Of a stretch of DNA of 6,904 nucleotides, positions 754 to 6,904 are shown in pieces. How positions within the stretch are numbered: position 1 is the first letter of the stretch; each line of letters starts with the position of its first letter. A model generated the notes under the pieces. It ran no database searches. It was not told the origin of the DNA and saw only the letters and a list, made by a program, of their open reading frames with translations. Made by a program: the position numbers and the translations under genes. Origin of the DNA: Gammaproteobacteria bacterium UBA3532. Its GTDB lineage: Bacteria; Pseudomonadota; Gammaproteobacteria; Enterobacterales; UBA3532. The DNA is taken from positions 1 through 6,904 of the forward strand of contig DFOV01000227.1 in the NCBI GenBank assembly GCA_002376965.1, read 5' to 3'.

Positions 754-2619
754 TTACTTCGACGTAAACGTAAATGCCCCATCCCAATCATCTGGCGGTG
801 GGGTTTGAGAAAAGATCTCAATGCGTTCAAGGTATTTCTGATAAAGCGGGTGGGGAGCTTGGTCGTTTAAGTGTTGGAGAACGCCATGGGCATTTTCCCA
901 ATCTCTAGCCCAGTAGGCTTCCAAAGCAGTATGGTACGCGGCCAGCCCCTGCTGTACCTCAGGGGCAACATCGTCTTGTAGCCCCAACGGATAATAGATC
1001 GTCACAGGTTTCTGCTTACCTTTCACCCGCACTTTATCCAAACACTGGTAAACATATTCTGGCGCTTGCTGCTGAGAAAACTCACTAACAACGATTGGAA
1101 CGGCATAGGCTTTACACAACCCCTCCAAACGCGATGCCAGATTGACGGCATCACCGATTACTGTGTAGTTAAGTCGTGTCATCGAACCCATGTTACCTGC
1201 AACCACTACCCCGGTATTAATGCCTACGCCAATAGCGAAAGCTGGCCAGCCTTTCTCGGTAAATTCATCATTCACCCTATCCAATGCTTTTACCATGGCC
1301 AGGGCTGCCCCGATGGCGTCATGAGCACAACGCGGGCTAGCTAAAGGCGTACCATAGATAGCCATAATGGCATCCCCAATATACTTATCAACCACCCCGT
1401 TTCGACCTTCAATGATCTGGTTCATCGCCGTCAGATAATGATTGAGCATGTCGATCACCGTTTTCGGGCTGAGCGACTCGCACAAGGTCGTAAAACTGCG
1501 CACATCAGAAAACAAGATCGTTGCCTCGCGCTCCTCTCCCCCCAGCTCTATTTGTTTGTTTAATAGCTCTTCGGCAATCTGCGGTGAAACAACCTTTCCC
1601 AATAGATTGACCACCCGCTCTCGGTCAGCCAGTCCTTGCATCATGGTGTTAAAGGTCTTTGCCAGCCGTCCCAGCTCGTCGCGCTGTGGCAGCTCAATTT
1701 TGGTTTGATAGTCGCCTTCTGCCACGCGCTCGGCACCAGCAGCCAGCCGTTGCACCGGCTGGGTAACATTGCGCGCCAATATCGATCCGCCAACGATAGA
1801 GAGCCCCACCGTGACCAGAAAAATATAGAATAGATTATTTCGCAGCTGAAAATAGAACACGAGCTCGCGATCCAACGAGCGCAATAGCACCGCTTGAGCA
1901 TTGCGATTGGCAATGGTTAATGGAACAACATGACGAATAAATTGCTCGCCGTCTAACCTTGCCGGAAGATGCTGCACGCCTTCAGCAGCCGCTGTAAACT
2001 GCAATCCAGCCAATACATCACATGACGATGGCGCTAGCGTACATGCATACATCTGGCTCGACTGCTGATGGTTTTCAAAATAAAGCGCCACATCCGTCTC
2101 TTGGGTCACCTGTTTTAGCGCTTTAGCCAAGGTCGTGTCCACCTCAAACCCACTGACAATCAATGCTACGGGATGGGGGATATAAAGAGGCGTAATCACC
2201 AGTTGATAAGGCTTACCATGAACGAAGCCAAAGCCCTGGGCTACCCCGCGCTCACTATTTAGAGCGGTTTCATATAGAAATGCCACGTCTGGTGGCATTT
2301 GAGTTTCGGCGGGTAGCAAGGTGTCGGCCTGAACCCTCTCCGTTTCAAGAGAAATCAGCATCATCACATCCGCCCCAAAACGTCGCTGATAGTTTTCCAA
2401 CGCCGAGTTAAGGGTAGCGCGCTCATTCAGCGCATAGGCCGATTTAAAACCATGATCTCGCGATAACAGATCGGACTTTTCGAGAAGTGTTTGATAGCGC
2501 CTGGCTAACAGGCGCTCAAATGCTTGCGAGGTTAACTGCAAATTGTCGCTGATTTTGGCCATAGCACTAGCATTGCTGGTGTGATTAACCGCCAAAAAGG
2601 TCAGAGCCTCAGCGACCAA
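754..2619 (-). CDS. Transmembrane class III adenylyl/guanylyl cyclase with periplasmic sensor region and HAMP
   Basis: Makes a cyclic nucleotide, probably cAMP, in the cytoplasm in response to a periplasmic cue. Numbering from TTG 2619 (621 aa): residues about 14-255 are an extracytoplasmic sensor resembling the dCache_3-type double sensory domain. A membrane helix lies at about 262-281, HAMP at about 283-337, the cyclase domain at about 363-545, and an alpha-helical tail at 550-600. Catalytic residues are intact: metal-binding Asp372 (FSDVRSF) and Asp416 (DKYIGD), purine-site Lys412, and Asn493 and Arg497 (NLASR). Thr486 in NYTVIGD replaces the purine-site Asp, the class IIIb pattern, a group with bicarbonate-stimulated members. 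This is the last gene of the barrel-cupredoxin-cyclase cluster. The start is doubtful: TTG 2619 would cut the first membrane helix in half, and the frame is open to 2700 and encodes the missing half (see the entry for 2620-2700). The true product is probably about 20 residues longer. Cyclase identity is sure; ATP over GTP preference is inferred. Confidence 0.9.
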   Translation of the reverse strand: MVAEALTFLAVNHTSNASAMAKISDNLQLTSQAFERLLARRYQTLLEKSDLLSRDHGFKSAYALNERATLNSALENYQRRFGADVMMLISLETERVQADTLLPAETQMPPDVAFLYETALNSERGVAQGFGFVHGKPYQLVITPLYIPHPVALIVSGFEVDTTLAKALKQVTQETDVALYFENHQQSSQMYACTLAPSSCDVLAGLQFTAAAEGVQHLPARLDGEQFIRHVVPLTIANRNAQAVLLRSLDRELVFYFQLRNNLFYIFLVTVGLSIVGGSILARNVTQPVQRLAAGAERVAEGDYQTKIELPQRDELGRLAKTFNTMMQGLADRERVVNLLGKVVSPQIAEELLNKQIELGGEEREATILFSDVRSFTTLCESLSPKTVIDMLNHYLTAMNQIIEGRNGVVDKYIGDAIMAIYGTPLASPRCAHDAIGAALAMVKALDRVNDEFTEKGWPAFAIGVGINTGVVVAGNMGSMTRLNYTVIGDAVNLASRLEGLCKAYAVPIVVSEFSQQQAPEYVYQCLDKVRVKGKQKPVTIYYPLGLQDDVAPEVQQGLAAYHTALEAYWARDWENAHGVLQHLNDQAPHPLYQKYLERIEIFSQTPPPDDWDGAFTFTSK

Positions 2620-2700
2620 AAACAGGCTGAGGATACCGACCGTTAGCTTGGTTCTGAATGACCGAAAGCAGGGAAAAAGATTCAGCGATAGCCCCCGCCA
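2620..2700 (-). other. Probable N-terminal extension of the cyclase, with no canonical start codon
   Basis: The cyclase frame continues upstream of TTG 2619 to a TAA at 2703-2701. This stretch translates to a short basic segment (CFRSFRTK) followed by TVGILSLFL, which joins VAEALTFLAV of the annotated protein to give one full 20-residue membrane helix. Receptors of this type normally begin this way, so the segment is probably translated. It contains no ATG, GTG or TTG. The best candidate start is CTG at 2685-2683. It overlaps the cupredoxin stop as CTGA, and GGCGGGGG ends six bases upstream as a weak ribosome-binding site. Alternatives are initiation at TTG 2619, or a one-base difference in the G5 tract that would connect ATG 2701. 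An in-frame ATG at 2721 is cut off by the TAA after six codons. Confidence 0.6.
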
Positions 2701-3329
2701 TTAGCCGTGGGAGAGCGCCATGATTTCCACAAACGCTTTTTGCTTATCTCAATCGTCAATGCACTACTGCCATCCTCGCCCACCCCTAGATTCTGGCGAG
2801 TGCTTGCAACATCCCCTTTTAACTCTGGGTGCCACACTTCTACCTGAAACTCTCCGGCAGGCACCTGGTTAATCGTAGCAACTCCCCGCTGGTCGGTAAC
2901 ACCAAAATAAGGTGTTGGGCTAACGTAAATATACGATGACATCCAGTCATGAATATTACAACCTAATGCCACCACCCCAGGCTTATCAAAGGCTACCGGC
3001 TCTCCCGGCGTTCCGGAATATAGAGGGATCTCAAACTGCTTCGCATCCGAGAACGAATAAACATGGTGACGAGTACTGTCTTTATTGGGAAAGCTGACTT
3101 TTGCGCCTTGCTCAACGGCGATGACAAAGGGTACGAATTCTTTGTCAATTTGCGTGACGGTGCCATCATTCACTTTACCAGCTGAAGGGCTAGCCGGATC
3201 AGTCACAGTAACCACCGCGTTATCGACCTTTTCACCTTTACTGTCAACGACAGTAACCGTAACAGTTGCGGCACTGGCTACACCTGCTTGCATTAAAAGG
3301 CTTAATGCTATCCAACGATATGCTTTCAT
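2682..3329 (-). CDS. Secreted periplasmic cupredoxin-like protein (methylamine-utilization-protein-like)
   Basis: A small periplasmic protein with a probable type 1 copper site. Numbering from ATG 3329 (215 aa), residues 1-20 are a Sec signal peptide ending GVASA before ATVTV. A beta-rich section follows. The copper site would use one His of HHVYSF (88-89) plus Cys124, His127 and Met130 of GCNIHDWM. C-x2-H-x2-M is compatible with cupredoxin ligands. The C-terminal part (about 139-170: YFGVTDQRG, VPAGEF, WHP) resembles the carboxypeptidase-regulatory-like beta fold that follows this domain in related proteins. Such proteins are often labelled methylamine utilization protein, but no other mau-type gene is present here. 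ATG 3329 is preferred over ATG 3335 because AGGAGGG (3342-3336) abuts ATG 3335 directly but sits six bases before ATG 3329. The Shine-Dalgarno overlaps the barrel stop codon, implying translational coupling. Electron transfer, copper binding or ligand presentation to the cyclase are all possible. Confidence 0.85.
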   Translation of the reverse strand: MKAYRWIALSLLMQAGVASAATVTVTVVDSKGEKVDNAVVTVTDPASPSAGKVNDGTVTQIDKEFVPFVIAVEQGAKVSFPNKDSTRHHVYSFSDAKQFEIPLYSGTPGEPVAFDKPGVVALGCNIHDWMSSYIYVSPTPYFGVTDQRGVATINQVPAGEFQVEVWHPELKGDVASTRQNLGVGEDGSSALTIEISKKRLWKSWRSPTANGGGYR

Positions 3330-3335
3330 TCTCAT

Positions 3336-3343
3336 CCCTCCTA
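3336..3343 (-). promoter_or_regulatory. Ribosome-binding site overlapping the barrel stop codon
   Basis: Read on the minus strand the sequence is TAGGAGGG. Its TAG (3343-3341) ends the barrel gene and its AGGAGGG is a near-perfect Shine-Dalgarno for the cupredoxin gene. A ribosome finishing the barrel sits on the next initiation site, so the two products are probably made in linked amounts. The position also decides the cupredoxin start in favour of ATG 3329 over ATG 3335. Confidence 0.8.
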
Positions 3344-4279
3344 GCGCAAGTACTGCAAGCTGAGGCGACCAATATTATTCTCATAGGTCCACTCTTCGAT
3401 ATCAATACTCTGGTAACTATAACCGACTGCAACCGATAGCTGCTTAGTGAGCGCATAATTCAGATCCAGACCCAGTTGATAACCATCGCCATCCAATACA
3501 TAGCGACAGCCAGGAACACCTTCACCGAAATCGGCCTCATTGAAAACACCGTCCAAACCAAAGGCAGTAAAGTTTTCCGGCCCACCAATGCCATCGATAA
3601 TCATCCCAATGGTATCGCCTGAGCACTGTCCGTGAAACTCCCCATCCAAATAGCGTGCCTGAGCACCTAGCATCAAACGAGGCAACAACGCAAATCGCGC
3701 ATTAGAATAAAGATGGAGCTGCTCAAAGTCGAGCACATCGCTATCCACTTGCTCGACCACCGCGTCCCAGTCTCGCCCATCACTTTTTAGATAAGCCAAG
3801 CCGACGCTGACATCAAATCGATGATTAAATGGCTTGTTGACCGATGCATCAAGCCGATGCAGCCAACGTTCACGCTGCTCGTCGTCAACTTTTTCACGCT
3901 CGCTCTGCCATTCCAGCCGTAGCTTAGGCACTGTATGTCCCAGGCCAAACTTGTGAAAATAAACCAGCGATGGCGTGACAGATACCTTGTTCATTTCGTC
4001 ATAGTGATTGTAGATCTCACCGCCAACTCCAAGCCCAAACTTAATACGACTGTTTGAGAAGCGACCGCCCAATTGATATAGCCGCCCGATTTCAACATCG
4101 GCGCGCGCGAAACTATCGGATAGCTCATCTTCTGAGAAAACGGCCTGATTTAGATTGTCGTTGTGCTCAACACGTAAAGATGCAGCATGTTGCCAATCGA
4201 CCCACTCTGCTGAAGCTGGGGCACTTACCCCGAGCAAACATAGTGATACCACAGAACCAAACTTTATTTTACTTATCAT
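3341..4279 (-). CDS. Outer-membrane beta-barrel protein, unassigned family
   Basis: A 312-residue exported protein with the look of an outer-membrane barrel. Residues 1-24 are a signal peptide with a canonical APASA cleavage site before EWVDW. The mature part alternates amphipathic strands ending in aromatics (for example SLVYFHKFG, RLMLGAQARY, LSVAVGYSYQ) with acidic loops rich in Asp and Glu. The last strand ends SLQYLR, with the aromatic residue two from the end and not a classic terminal Phe. The mature protein has only two cysteines, Cys219 and Cys258. They flank a long probable extracellular loop with Gly-rich IDGIGGPENF and may form a disulfide. A purine-rich ribosome-binding site (GGGGAGGGGGAAG) precedes ATG 4279. 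It is the first gene of the three-gene cluster. I do not recognise a named porin or receptor. It may be a small-molecule or metal channel, or a structural partner of the periplasmic protein. Confidence 0.78.
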   Translation of the reverse strand: MISKIKFGSVVSLCLLGVSAPASAEWVDWQHAASLRVEHNDNLNQAVFSEDELSDSFARADVEIGRLYQLGGRFSNSRIKFGLGVGGEIYNHYDEMNKVSVTPSLVYFHKFGLGHTVPKLRLEWQSEREKVDDEQRERWLHRLDASVNKPFNHRFDVSVGLAYLKSDGRDWDAVVEQVDSDVLDFEQLHLYSNARFALLPRLMLGAQARYLDGEFHGQCSGDTIGMIIDGIGGPENFTAFGLDGVFNEADFGEGVPGCRYVLDGDGYQLGLDLNYALTKQLSVAVGYSYQSIDIEEWTYENNIGRLSLQYLR

Positions 4280-4336
4280 AAACTTCCCCCTCCCCTTTTT
4301 AGTAATACCGCCCTTCTATCGTTCCAGTGCCTAAGC

Positions 4337-4362
4337 ATTAGCAACATCTATCCCATTGTCAA
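4337..4362 (-). promoter_or_regulatory. Candidate sigma-70 promoter for the barrel-cupredoxin-cyclase cluster
   Basis: The only gap on the minus strand long enough for a promoter is the 88 bases between the chemoreceptor stop and the barrel start. On that strand it holds a perfect -35 hexamer TTGACA (4362-4357). The -10 is poor: GCTAAT (4342-4337) matches four of six but at only 14 bases spacing, and TAATGC at 16 bases matches fewer. The site may be activator-dependent, or the cluster may be read from the chemoreceptor promoter. No rho-independent terminator separates the two genes. Confidence 0.35.
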
Positions 4363-4367
4363 CTCTG

Positions 4368-6293
4368 CTAAACTCGAAAGCGCTCGACCAGCGCGGTTAA
4401 TTCACTAGCACTCGCATATAGCTGGTCACAGGCTTGAACCGCCTCAATCGACGCATCTGCCGTGCGCTTACTGATATCATTAATCGCGGTAATATGACGA
4501 TTTAGGTCGTCAACGACGGTGCTTTGCTCTTCTGTTGCTGTTGCAACCATGGTCGACATGTCCGATATATGCTGTATCGATGAGGTGATACTGGAAATCG
4601 AACTCCCTGCCAATTCAGCCCCCGCGACTGCCTTTTCAGCCCGTTCCATCCCAATTGCCATCGCATTTACCGCATCCGAAGCACCTTGTTTCAACGTCGC
4701 GATCATGGTGTTGACTTCTTGCGTAGAATCCTGAGTTCGGCTGGCCAGTGTTCTAACTTCATCGGCCACGACCGCGAACCCACGCCCTTGCTCGCCCGCA
4801 CGCGCAGCTTCTATCGCCGCATTCAATGCCAGCAGGTTAGTTTGTTCCGAAATATTGGAAATTACCGTCAGTACCGAGCTGATCTGACCTATGTCTGCCG
4901 CCAGCCGCTCAATGACTTCAGAGGCTTTAAGGATATCATCATTGAGAGTGGTGATTTGTGATACCGTATTTTCAACTTCACGATAGGACTGAGAGGCGTC
5001 ATCTGCCGCTTTGCTGCTCGACTCTGCAGTGTCTGACGCATTGTTAGCGATTTCATTGACCGTTGCTCCCATTTGGGTTGTTGCAGTTGCAACCAGTTCA
5101 ACACTTTGCTGCTGCGAAATGCTGTCTGTTTTGGTTTGTTCTGATAAGGCACTCATCTGCGAAGCTGAGTTTTCGACCAAATGAGCGGTATCGTTGAGCT
5201 GAACCATCAGTTGACGCATCTTCTCGACAAAGCGGTTAAATGCCTCAGCCAACATCCCAATTTCATCTTGGGACGACACTTTTAGCTGTTTGGTAAGATC
5301 CGCCTCGCCCCGAGAAATCGCATCTAACATCGCCGCCGTTTTGACAATCGGCACTGCGATTCTCCCTGCTAACAATACAGCAACCGCGATAAGAACCAGA
5401 GCTAGCAAAACATTAATAAGAATAACCTTTTGAGTCGTTGCCTGCACACCACCATAGATTTCGTTATTAGGGATCTCCGCCACCAAAAACCAGTCGAGCA
5501 AAGGAATATAATGGGTAGCGACAACCAGCTTTTTATCAGCTTGTTTCACCACATTGAGCTTTTCCTTGTTTAGTAAATCGCTGATTTCATCCGCTTGATA
5601 GCCTAAACGCTCCAGACTATGAGAGCCTATATAGTTTGCATCTGGGTGCACGCGAATCCCACCTGCGGCATCAATTAAATAAACAACTCCCTGCTCCCCG
5701 ACTTGAAAGTCGCGGATCAGTTCGGCAAGCTGATTAACGCGTAAACCAATCCCGGTTACCGCCTGTTTATTCATGGTCAGGTTGTTAATGAATAGGGTGA
5801 AAACGCCACTCGAACTATCAATATCCAAATCAAGAGCGAACGGTTTACCTGATGCTAGAAATCCATAAAACCAGCCATCTTCAGGGTTAGACTGAGATAG
5901 AGTGCGCACCAAGCCATCCTGGGTGTAGTAATTACCAGTTTTTGCTGACACCAGAAATGACGTTTCAGCAGAGTAGCGTTGTTTCACCTGGTCCAGATAA
6001 CGACGAATATTCTCTCGCTCCGACTCTGGCTCCCCCTCATCCAACCAATCAGCAACAAAGGTGTTGTTAGCCATGTTGCTGGCGATGTTCATCGGAATAG
6101 CAATTTCCAACCCAATTTGAGCAGCCAGATCAGACAGAATATGCGGTAGTTCATTTTCGGTGATCCGATTAATAGCCTCCGTCCGCATAAACACATTGCT
6201 GAAAACGGTCGAAAGCACAATCGTGATAATCAGCGATCCGCCAATGGCCCCTATCAGCTTATTTCGAATACTCAAACGCGACCAAAATTGCAT
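4368..6293 (-). CDS. Methyl-accepting chemotaxis protein with dCache periplasmic sensor
   Basis: An inner-membrane chemoreceptor that would control CheA through CheW. Numbering from ATG 6293 (641 aa), the first membrane helix is about 13-35. The periplasmic ligand domain, about 36-288, has the double-Cache pattern; its membrane-distal half contains [14 protein letters not shown] and its membrane-proximal half [19 protein letters not shown]. The second membrane helix is about 290-310, HAMP about 311-364, and the cytoplasmic coiled-coil hairpin about 370-640. The hairpin tip [20 protein letters not shown] (483-502) followed by [12 protein letters not shown] is near-invariant in the family. The protein ends LVERFRV with no CheR-binding NWxxF pentapeptide. 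ATG 6293 is preferred because GAGAGG (6305-6300) lies six bases before it. ATG 6317, eight codons upstream, has its AAAAGGG directly abutting. The R-x-W-Y amino-acid-binding motif of many dCache domains is not seen near residue 140, so the ligand is unknown. It may be co-transcribed with the cluster downstream. Confidence 0.95.
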
Positions 6294-6317
6294 GCTCAAC
6301 CTCTCAATCGAAAACAT

Positions 6318-6904
<587 letters not shown>

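Follow-up and report, generated by a model that had tools for sequence, protein, structure and literature searches.

The window analyzed here, i.e., the whole stretch of DNA under study, is one entire contig (DFOV01000227.1, C411; 6,904 bases) from the 454-contig genome of Gammaproteobacteria bacterium UBA3532. Its minus strand encodes, in transcription order, a chemoreceptor (4368–6317), a predicted outer-membrane beta-barrel, a cupredoxin-like protein, and a membrane receptor with a class III nucleotide cyclase domain, and a hydrolase gene (15–752) converges on this row. The last three minus-strand genes (Table 1) are the subject of this report. A previous sequence-only reading had described them as adjacent genes for an exported barrel, a secreted copper-type protein, and a transmembrane cyclase that together form one signalling unit, and all three were located where it had placed them, the barrel by prediction.

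Table 1. Position and supporting evidence for features of the barrel, cupredoxin, and cyclase genes in the window
Feature	Position	Strand	Evidence or remark
Predicted outer-membrane beta-barrel, exported, 312 aa, window-type family	3341..4279	minus	Open reading frame, signal peptide, weak below-cut-off barrel matches
AGGAGGG, Shine-Dalgarno-like, overlapping barrel stop TAG (3341-3343)	3336..3342	minus	Read from sequence
Secreted cupredoxin-like protein with carboxypeptidase-regulatory-like (transthyretin-type) beta-sandwich, 217 aa	2682..3335	minus	Profile, predicted fold
His90 codon, predicted copper ligand	3066..3068	minus	Invariant in 79/79 and 121/121
Cys126 codon, predicted copper ligand	2958..2960	minus	Alignment of relatives, ligand check
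His129 codon, predicted copper ligand	2949..2951	minus	Alignment of relatives, ligand check
Met132 codon, predicted copper ligand	2940..2942	minus	Alignment of relatives, ligand check
CTGA: predicted cyclase CTG start (2683-2685) overlapping cupredoxin stop TGA	2682..2685	minus	Open frame, overlaps in relatives
Membrane receptor: first transmembrane helix, dCache, second transmembrane helix, HAMP, class III cyclase	754..2685	minus	643 aa from CTG 2685; 621 aa from TTG 2619
Periplasmic dCache sensor domain	1873..2574	minus	
HAMP linker	1630..1779	minus	PF00672, E 1.1e-15
Class III nucleotide cyclase catalytic domain, predicted adenylate cyclase	1000..1527	minus	PF00211, E 1e-28; Asp, Lys, Asp, Thr, Asn, Arg at catalytic positions

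The cupredoxin-like protein reached no family cut-off in Pfam and matched no NCBIfam family at E-values up to 1. A profile built from its relatives gave matches to nitrite reductases, in their type 1 copper domain (best E 0.0011), and its predicted structure is a Greek-key cupredoxin fold. The C-x2-H-x2-M motif singled out by the sequence-only reading corresponds to Cys126, His129, and Met132, to which we add His90, a fourth ligand that reading had not named. This His-Cys-His-Met set is conserved in 79/79 aligned proteins and in 121/121 loci checked, and it is intact in all 40 of these loci whose retrieval relied on a protein or profile search instead of the exact pattern that itself contains the ligands. 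Based on these residues, the protein is predicted to bind copper through a complete type 1 ligand set. Unlike type 1 cupredoxins such as amicyanin, pseudoazurin, plastocyanin, and the type 1 domain of nitrite reductase, it is joined to a carboxypeptidase-regulatory-like sandwich, and its gene lies beside a signalling receptor, with no adjoining electron-transfer enzyme in the window. Homologs are numerous (of 8,000 scored candidates, 7,736 fall at E ≤ 0.001), and their database labels include plastocyanin and methylamine utilization protein.

The receptor combines the HAMP and class III catalytic domains recognized by Pfam with a periplasmic region of ~235 residues, enclosed between two membrane helices and built as a double Cache (dCache) domain, in which a long N-terminal helix precedes two stacked PAS-like domains. 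Pfam dCache_3 exceeded its cut-off in some relatives (e.g., L075 and L052), compared to an E-value of only 0.34 in the window protein, and none of the 25 NCBIfam matches shown, out of 36 at E-values up to 1, exceeded its own cut-off. In fold, the sensor corresponds to the periplasmic part of LuxQ (2hj9, 1zhh), which was crystallised with its partner LuxP, and is equally close to the small-ligand sensors CitA, DcuS, DctB, and KinD; its distal half resembles CitA and DcuS, and CHASE4 domains (8z6n, 8wct) are also among its structural matches. To our knowledge, many periplasmic dCache receptors are without a known input. On the cytoplasmic side, an alignment with adenylate cyclases of solved structure, CyaB among them, identified both metal-binding Asp residues and the transition-state Asn and Arg, along with a Lys in DKYIGD and a Thr in YTVIGDAVNLASR, as in CyaB; we take these Lys and Thr (or Asp) positions to be the ATP-selecting pair of class III adenylate cyclases. 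The complete Asp-Lys-Asp-Thr-Asn-Arg set was found in 15 of the 22 cyclases checked, the window's included. The remaining ones display Ser for Thr (L066, L073, L165), Arg and Ala at the ATP-selecting positions (L032, L091), Gln for Lys (L139), or the loss of most catalytic residues (L148), and the substrate assignment excludes L032, L091, L139, and L148, in which ATP-selecting or catalytic residues are altered.

For the barrel, a signal peptide is visible in the sequence, and the best-documented match, to OMP_b-brl (E 2.5e-05, 25.0 bits), falls below the cut-off of 28.7, as do matches to other barrel families. A profile of 12 window-type relatives matched EstA alone among solved structures, and weakly so (E 0.013), while OmpA and Pal families were absent from the Pfam and NCBIfam matches at E-values up to 1. 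The assignment as an outer-membrane beta-barrel is accordingly given as a prediction. Across related loci, the idea of a single barrel family was rejected, as three families occupy this place, hereafter the window type, DUF3034, and the L022 type; pairwise hhalign probabilities of 0.8 to 14.8 provide no convincing kinship between them. DUF3034 (PF11231; E 1e-111 or better in three members scanned) is a family of unknown function that we predict, by eye, to be barrel-like. Among the L022-type proteins, six were scanned: three had porin-family matches that narrowly missed the cut-off and three had no match, and profile searches of solved structures with DUF3034 and the L022 type returned nothing convincing, so that barrels in all three families are likewise predicted. 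Conservation of two Cys in a loop of the barrel was likewise considered and rejected, as only 11/46 proteins have the pair.

The genes are coupled, in line with what the sequence-only reading had seen. The barrel stop codon overlaps a Shine-Dalgarno-like motif ahead of the cupredoxin gene, as that reading had noted, and the overlap it thought probable between cupredoxin and cyclase is recovered through a predicted CTG start. The cyclase frame is open from a stop at 2701–2703 and offers no ATG, GTG, or TTG ahead of the first membrane helix, and initiation at the TTG at 2619 would truncate that helix. The CTG at 2683–2685 is thus the likely start, a choice favoured by the relatives, since the corresponding junction reads CTGA in L047 and TTGA in L060 and L088, and the receptor ATG of L045 lies 17 bases inside the cupredoxin gene. 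Directly ahead of this predicted start, the cupredoxin ends in GGGYR, encoded by a G-rich stretch (2682–2703), and the conservation of this C-terminus may be partly due to a ribosome-binding role. A promoter and terminator scan of 3250–4450 was uninformative, with 2 promoter-like and 0 terminator-like sites compared to 1.4 and 1.1 in shuffled sequences.

We next evaluated how often this gene set recurs in other genomes, using search profiles built iteratively from fetched loci. The named-genome set comprised 80 loci, the best among at least 594 retrieved with patterns that include the copper-ligand residues, and a second set was drawn from an even sample of 232 genomes of the class. In the latter, strong cupredoxin matches were defined by E ≤ 1e-30, a line set after inspecting the match table, in which E-values jumped from 1.3e-33 to 2.7e-27; the 15 next-weaker matches (to 9e-20) were also fetched and the 30 weakest left out. 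A receptor was counted when a sensor match lay at a gap of <1.3 kb, and a barrel-like gene when it lay within 4 kb. Together with loci from the order, this yielded 105 strong loci besides the window (80 named, 16 class, 9 order). Among named loci, 66 of which are from Pseudomonadota and 14 from seven other phyla including Nitrospirota, Rokuibacteriota, Nitrospinota, and Verrucomicrobiota, a receptor with a periplasmic domain homologous to the window's adjoins the cupredoxin in 72/80, and a barrel-like gene is near in 73/80 (35 window type, 35 DUF3034, 3 L022 type). The 16 strong loci of the class sample, found in 15 genomes besides the window's own, include a receptor in 15 cases and a barrel-like gene in 15 (9 DUF3034, 3 window type, 3 L022 type), and in the nine order loci fetched at full length each was found 7 times; at the level of matches, the sensor adjoins 14/18 cupredoxins of the order sample outside the window's genome. 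Co-occurrence of all three genes, which would be rare if they did not form one unit as the sequence-only reading proposed, is frequent (65/80 named, 14/16 class, and 5/9 order loci), and the three genes are one recurring module.

The association also holds in the converse direction. When the class sample was searched with the sensor only, 17/19 places outside the window's genome adjoined a cupredoxin match, or 18/19 with the cupredoxin of L176 (G151), seen only by the iterated profile. At the genome level, a strong cupredoxin and the sensor domain were both present in 14 genomes, with 1 genome encoding the cupredoxin only, 4 the sensor only, and 212 neither (Fisher p ~5e-18). As an internal control, a receptor lies beside 15/16 strong cupredoxins vs 2/15 of the next-weaker ones (p ~6e-6). 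Overall, the dependence is asymmetric, being stronger for the sensor on the cupredoxin than the other way round.

Within this module, the cupredoxin and the dCache domain are constant, and the output enzyme and the barrel-like protein are exchanged. The 72 receptors of the named loci include 50 with GGDEF-EAL, 17 with cyclase, and 2 with histidine kinase outputs, along with 3 that could not be called (L043, L054, L100); domain calls for ten examples were checked by Pfam. The corresponding numbers in the class sample are 10 GGDEF-EAL, 3 cyclase, 1 histidine kinase, and 1 broken and uncallable (L142), the certain cyclases being reduced to 2/16 because L148 is a weak match that fails the catalytic-residue check. 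Gene order and strand vary as well: among the 96 named and class loci, a receptor gene on the cupredoxin strand lies to the 3' side in 68 and to the 5' side in 15, while 4 loci have a divergent receptor and 9 have none, yet adjacency to the cupredoxin persists. A tree built from 106 cupredoxins implies at least 14 switches of the output and at least 12 of the barrel, although these counts may be too high since the tree is weakly resolved (53/103 inner branches open). One well-supported clade (L032, L038, L091; Shimodaira-Hasegawa-like approximate likelihood ratio test (SH-aLRT) 97) mixes cyclase and kinase outputs. The earlier interpretation is thus partly supported: the unit itself stands, while cyclic AMP (cAMP) as its defining output does not, as the outputs of the relatives are mostly GGDEF-EAL and in a few cases histidine kinase, nor does a barrel of one protein family, its place being filled by three. 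Separately, several Pseudomonas species have a single cupredoxin with a receptor of this family on either side (four loci: L046, L079, L096, L100), as if it served two outputs.

DUF3034 loci display an additional gene. A globin profile matched in 46/47 of them vs 0/59 other loci, with one match checked in Pfam, and in many loci a short globin gene and DUF3034 come after the GGDEF-EAL receptor (L087:11013-12343; L138, L140, L144, L146). The typical Pseudomonas set is cupredoxin, GGDEF-EAL receptor, DUF3034, and globin (e.g., L087); in L095 and L149, DUF3034 and globin adjoin the cupredoxin and the receptor is absent. The proximity of a heme globin to a copper protein points to a theme involving gases or redox chemistry.

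Two known systems provide a framework for how such a module may operate. YfiBNR (TpbB; cyclic di-GMP (c-di-GMP)) is a tested tripartite system made of an outer-membrane part, a soluble periplasmic regulator, and an inner-membrane HAMP receptor enzyme, encoded by adjacent genes as in the module described here (PMC3375315). In that system, YfiR acts on YfiN with competition among the three Yfi proteins (PMC3375315), and YfiB sequesters YfiR (PMC4887326, PMC4655355). A further likeness is that its output has been exchanged in evolution (GGDEF-EAL, Hpt, or histidine kinase) while the periplasmic pair was kept (PMC3375315). The components nevertheless differ: YfiB has a Pal-type domain, whereas barrel-like proteins are found here and the window barrel matched no Pal or OmpA family, and the periplasmic domain of YfiN is PAS-type, compared to a double Cache here, where one of the outputs is a class III cyclase. 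Likewise, the periplasmic protein of the module has a predicted cupredoxin fold in place of a YfiR-type regulator, and YfiR is not known to be a cupredoxin. Distant Yfi operons are mostly without yfiB, while here the barrel-like gene is missing in 10/105 and the receptor in 11/105 strong loci. The pairing of a periplasmic protein with a dCache receptor, here predicted from genes and folds, is also that of LuxPQ. LuxP, which has a sugar-binding-protein fold and binds autoinducer 2 (AI-2), is replaced here by a cupredoxin, and the output of LuxQ is a hybrid kinase. Taken together, the module is a variant of tripartite envelope signalling that works like YfiBNR and probably like LuxPQ, and is a member of neither. 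A search of the full-text literature, judged by titles and the starts of abstracts and with subscription journals and preprints outside its coverage, returned no paper on the module among those listed.

By analogy with these systems, we tentatively propose, with a probability of roughly 45%, that the cupredoxin docks on the dCache domain of the HAMP-linked receptor and gates the cytoplasmic enzyme, here a predicted adenylate cyclase. The cupredoxin would then be a periplasmic co-receptor, comparable to YfiR for YfiN or LuxP for LuxQ, and copper, oxygen, or a reductant entering the periplasm would determine whether it is copper-loaded or oxidised and thereby how it binds dCache. The signal would travel via the second membrane helix and HAMP to the enzyme, and the barrel might either admit the cue or, in the manner of YfiB with YfiR, tether the cupredoxin to the outer membrane. 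Somewhat more doubtful is the wider form of this proposal, in which these receptors would be a widespread family with a blue-copper signalling subunit, the cupredoxin reporting periplasmic copper or redox state to cyclases, c-di-GMP enzymes, or kinases, with three kinds of barrel-like proteins on the outside.

Several observations weigh against docking and gating by the cupredoxin. First, dCache domains usually bind small ligands directly and the distal half of this one is CitA/DcuS-like, which would allow the receptor to sense on its own. Second, the receptor is missing in 11/105 strong loci, each of which still has a barrel-like gene, i.e., 8/80 named (L027, L037, L051, L053, L065, L067, L078, L095), 1/16 class (L149), and 2/9 order loci (L168, L170), although the barrel gene sits at the beginning of its contig in L051 and L053, where an upstream receptor could have been cut off. 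Third, no barrel-like gene of the three families lies within 4 kb in 7/80 named, 1/16 class, and 2/9 order loci, and one sensor of the 19 in the converse search (G195, L175) has no cupredoxin on the stretch read. The window's own genome also encodes both partial versions, namely a paralogous cupredoxin that abuts a 421-aa barrel-like protein of another family and has no receptor (L022:7283-9217), and a second receptor without a cupredoxin on the 12 kb read (L174; G000:C293, 372-2801). Finally, the CHASE4 domain of PA14_37690 binds copper in vitro on its own (PMC13277305), which means that a copper cue would need no partner protein. The second receptor, L174, belongs to the same sensor family, has a GGDEF-EAL output, and lies next to a divergent gene that appears outer-membrane-like by eye.

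Because the barrel–cupredoxin pair occurs without a receptor (11/105; L022), it also has a role apart from it, and the pair probably does a chemical job as well, i.e., metal or electron handling, which the receptor reads out. This leads to an alternative that we consider less likely, in which barrel and cupredoxin constitute a metal-uptake or electron-transfer unit and the dCache domain is a direct small-molecule sensor, e.g., for a carboxylate or the substrate being transported, within one pathway and with no contact between cupredoxin and receptor. The receptor-less loci and the proximity of the sensor fold to CitA, DcuS, DctB, and KinD as much as to LuxQ are consistent with this, but a sensor without a cupredoxin is rare (1/19 outside the window's genome) although the barrel is swapped among three families, and a shared substrate should shift with the barrel, yet the sensor and cupredoxin families stay constant.

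A receptor that itself binds the metal, with the cupredoxin as a copper donor or buffer and not a regulatory subunit, appears less probable still. The model for this is provided by the CHASE4 GGDEF-EAL proteins PA14_37690, reported to bind copper (PMC13277305), and IsmP, reported to bind iron (PMC10904736); both combine a periplasmic Cache-like domain with the output found in most module receptors, and CHASE4 is among the structural matches of the sensor. Unlike the cupredoxin module as we propose it, the metal in these two proteins binds the receptor domain itself (PMC10904736, PMC13277305), and a text search of PMC13277305 yielded no cupredoxin, operon, or periplasmic protein. The invariant or nearly invariant periplasmic positions of the module's sensor, however, include no Cys, His, or Met, with Asp, Asn, and other oxygen ligands still possible, and the two Cys of the window sensor are not conserved in the alignment rows shown (one is found in 2/45). 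Lastly, a chance neighbourhood of unrelated genes, for which only the eleven receptor-less strong loci speak, is refuted by the genome survey, since the gene set recurs in other genomes, in both search directions and far beyond random co-occurrence, with adjacency kept despite altered order and strand.

The copper protein encoded next door provides an entire receptor family with a likely partner and a testable cue. If it does gate the receptor, a single conserved input would tie periplasmic copper or redox state to cAMP, c-di-GMP, and phosphorelay signalling. Blue-copper proteins would then have a signalling role, with cupredoxins being sensors besides electron carriers, and a function would be available for part of a large family now labelled plastocyanin or methylamine utilization protein.

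The upstream chemoreceptor gene, a methyl-accepting chemotaxis protein (MCP), was considered as a fourth member of the module and rejected, as MCP matches were found in 8 fetched loci of other genomes at variable positions; within the fetched loci, the MCP sensor half and the downstream hydrolase matched only themselves. Divergent from the chemoreceptor, a gene start resembling catalase-peroxidase by eye (6459–6902) runs off the contig. Among the cupredoxin relatives, a distant subfamily with all four copper ligands adjoins a HEAT-repeat-like gene (L154, L156, L158, L159, L161, L163), and several of these loci also include universal-stress-like and radical-SAM-like genes, kinds that were judged by eye. 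This looks like a separate, uncharacterised cluster.

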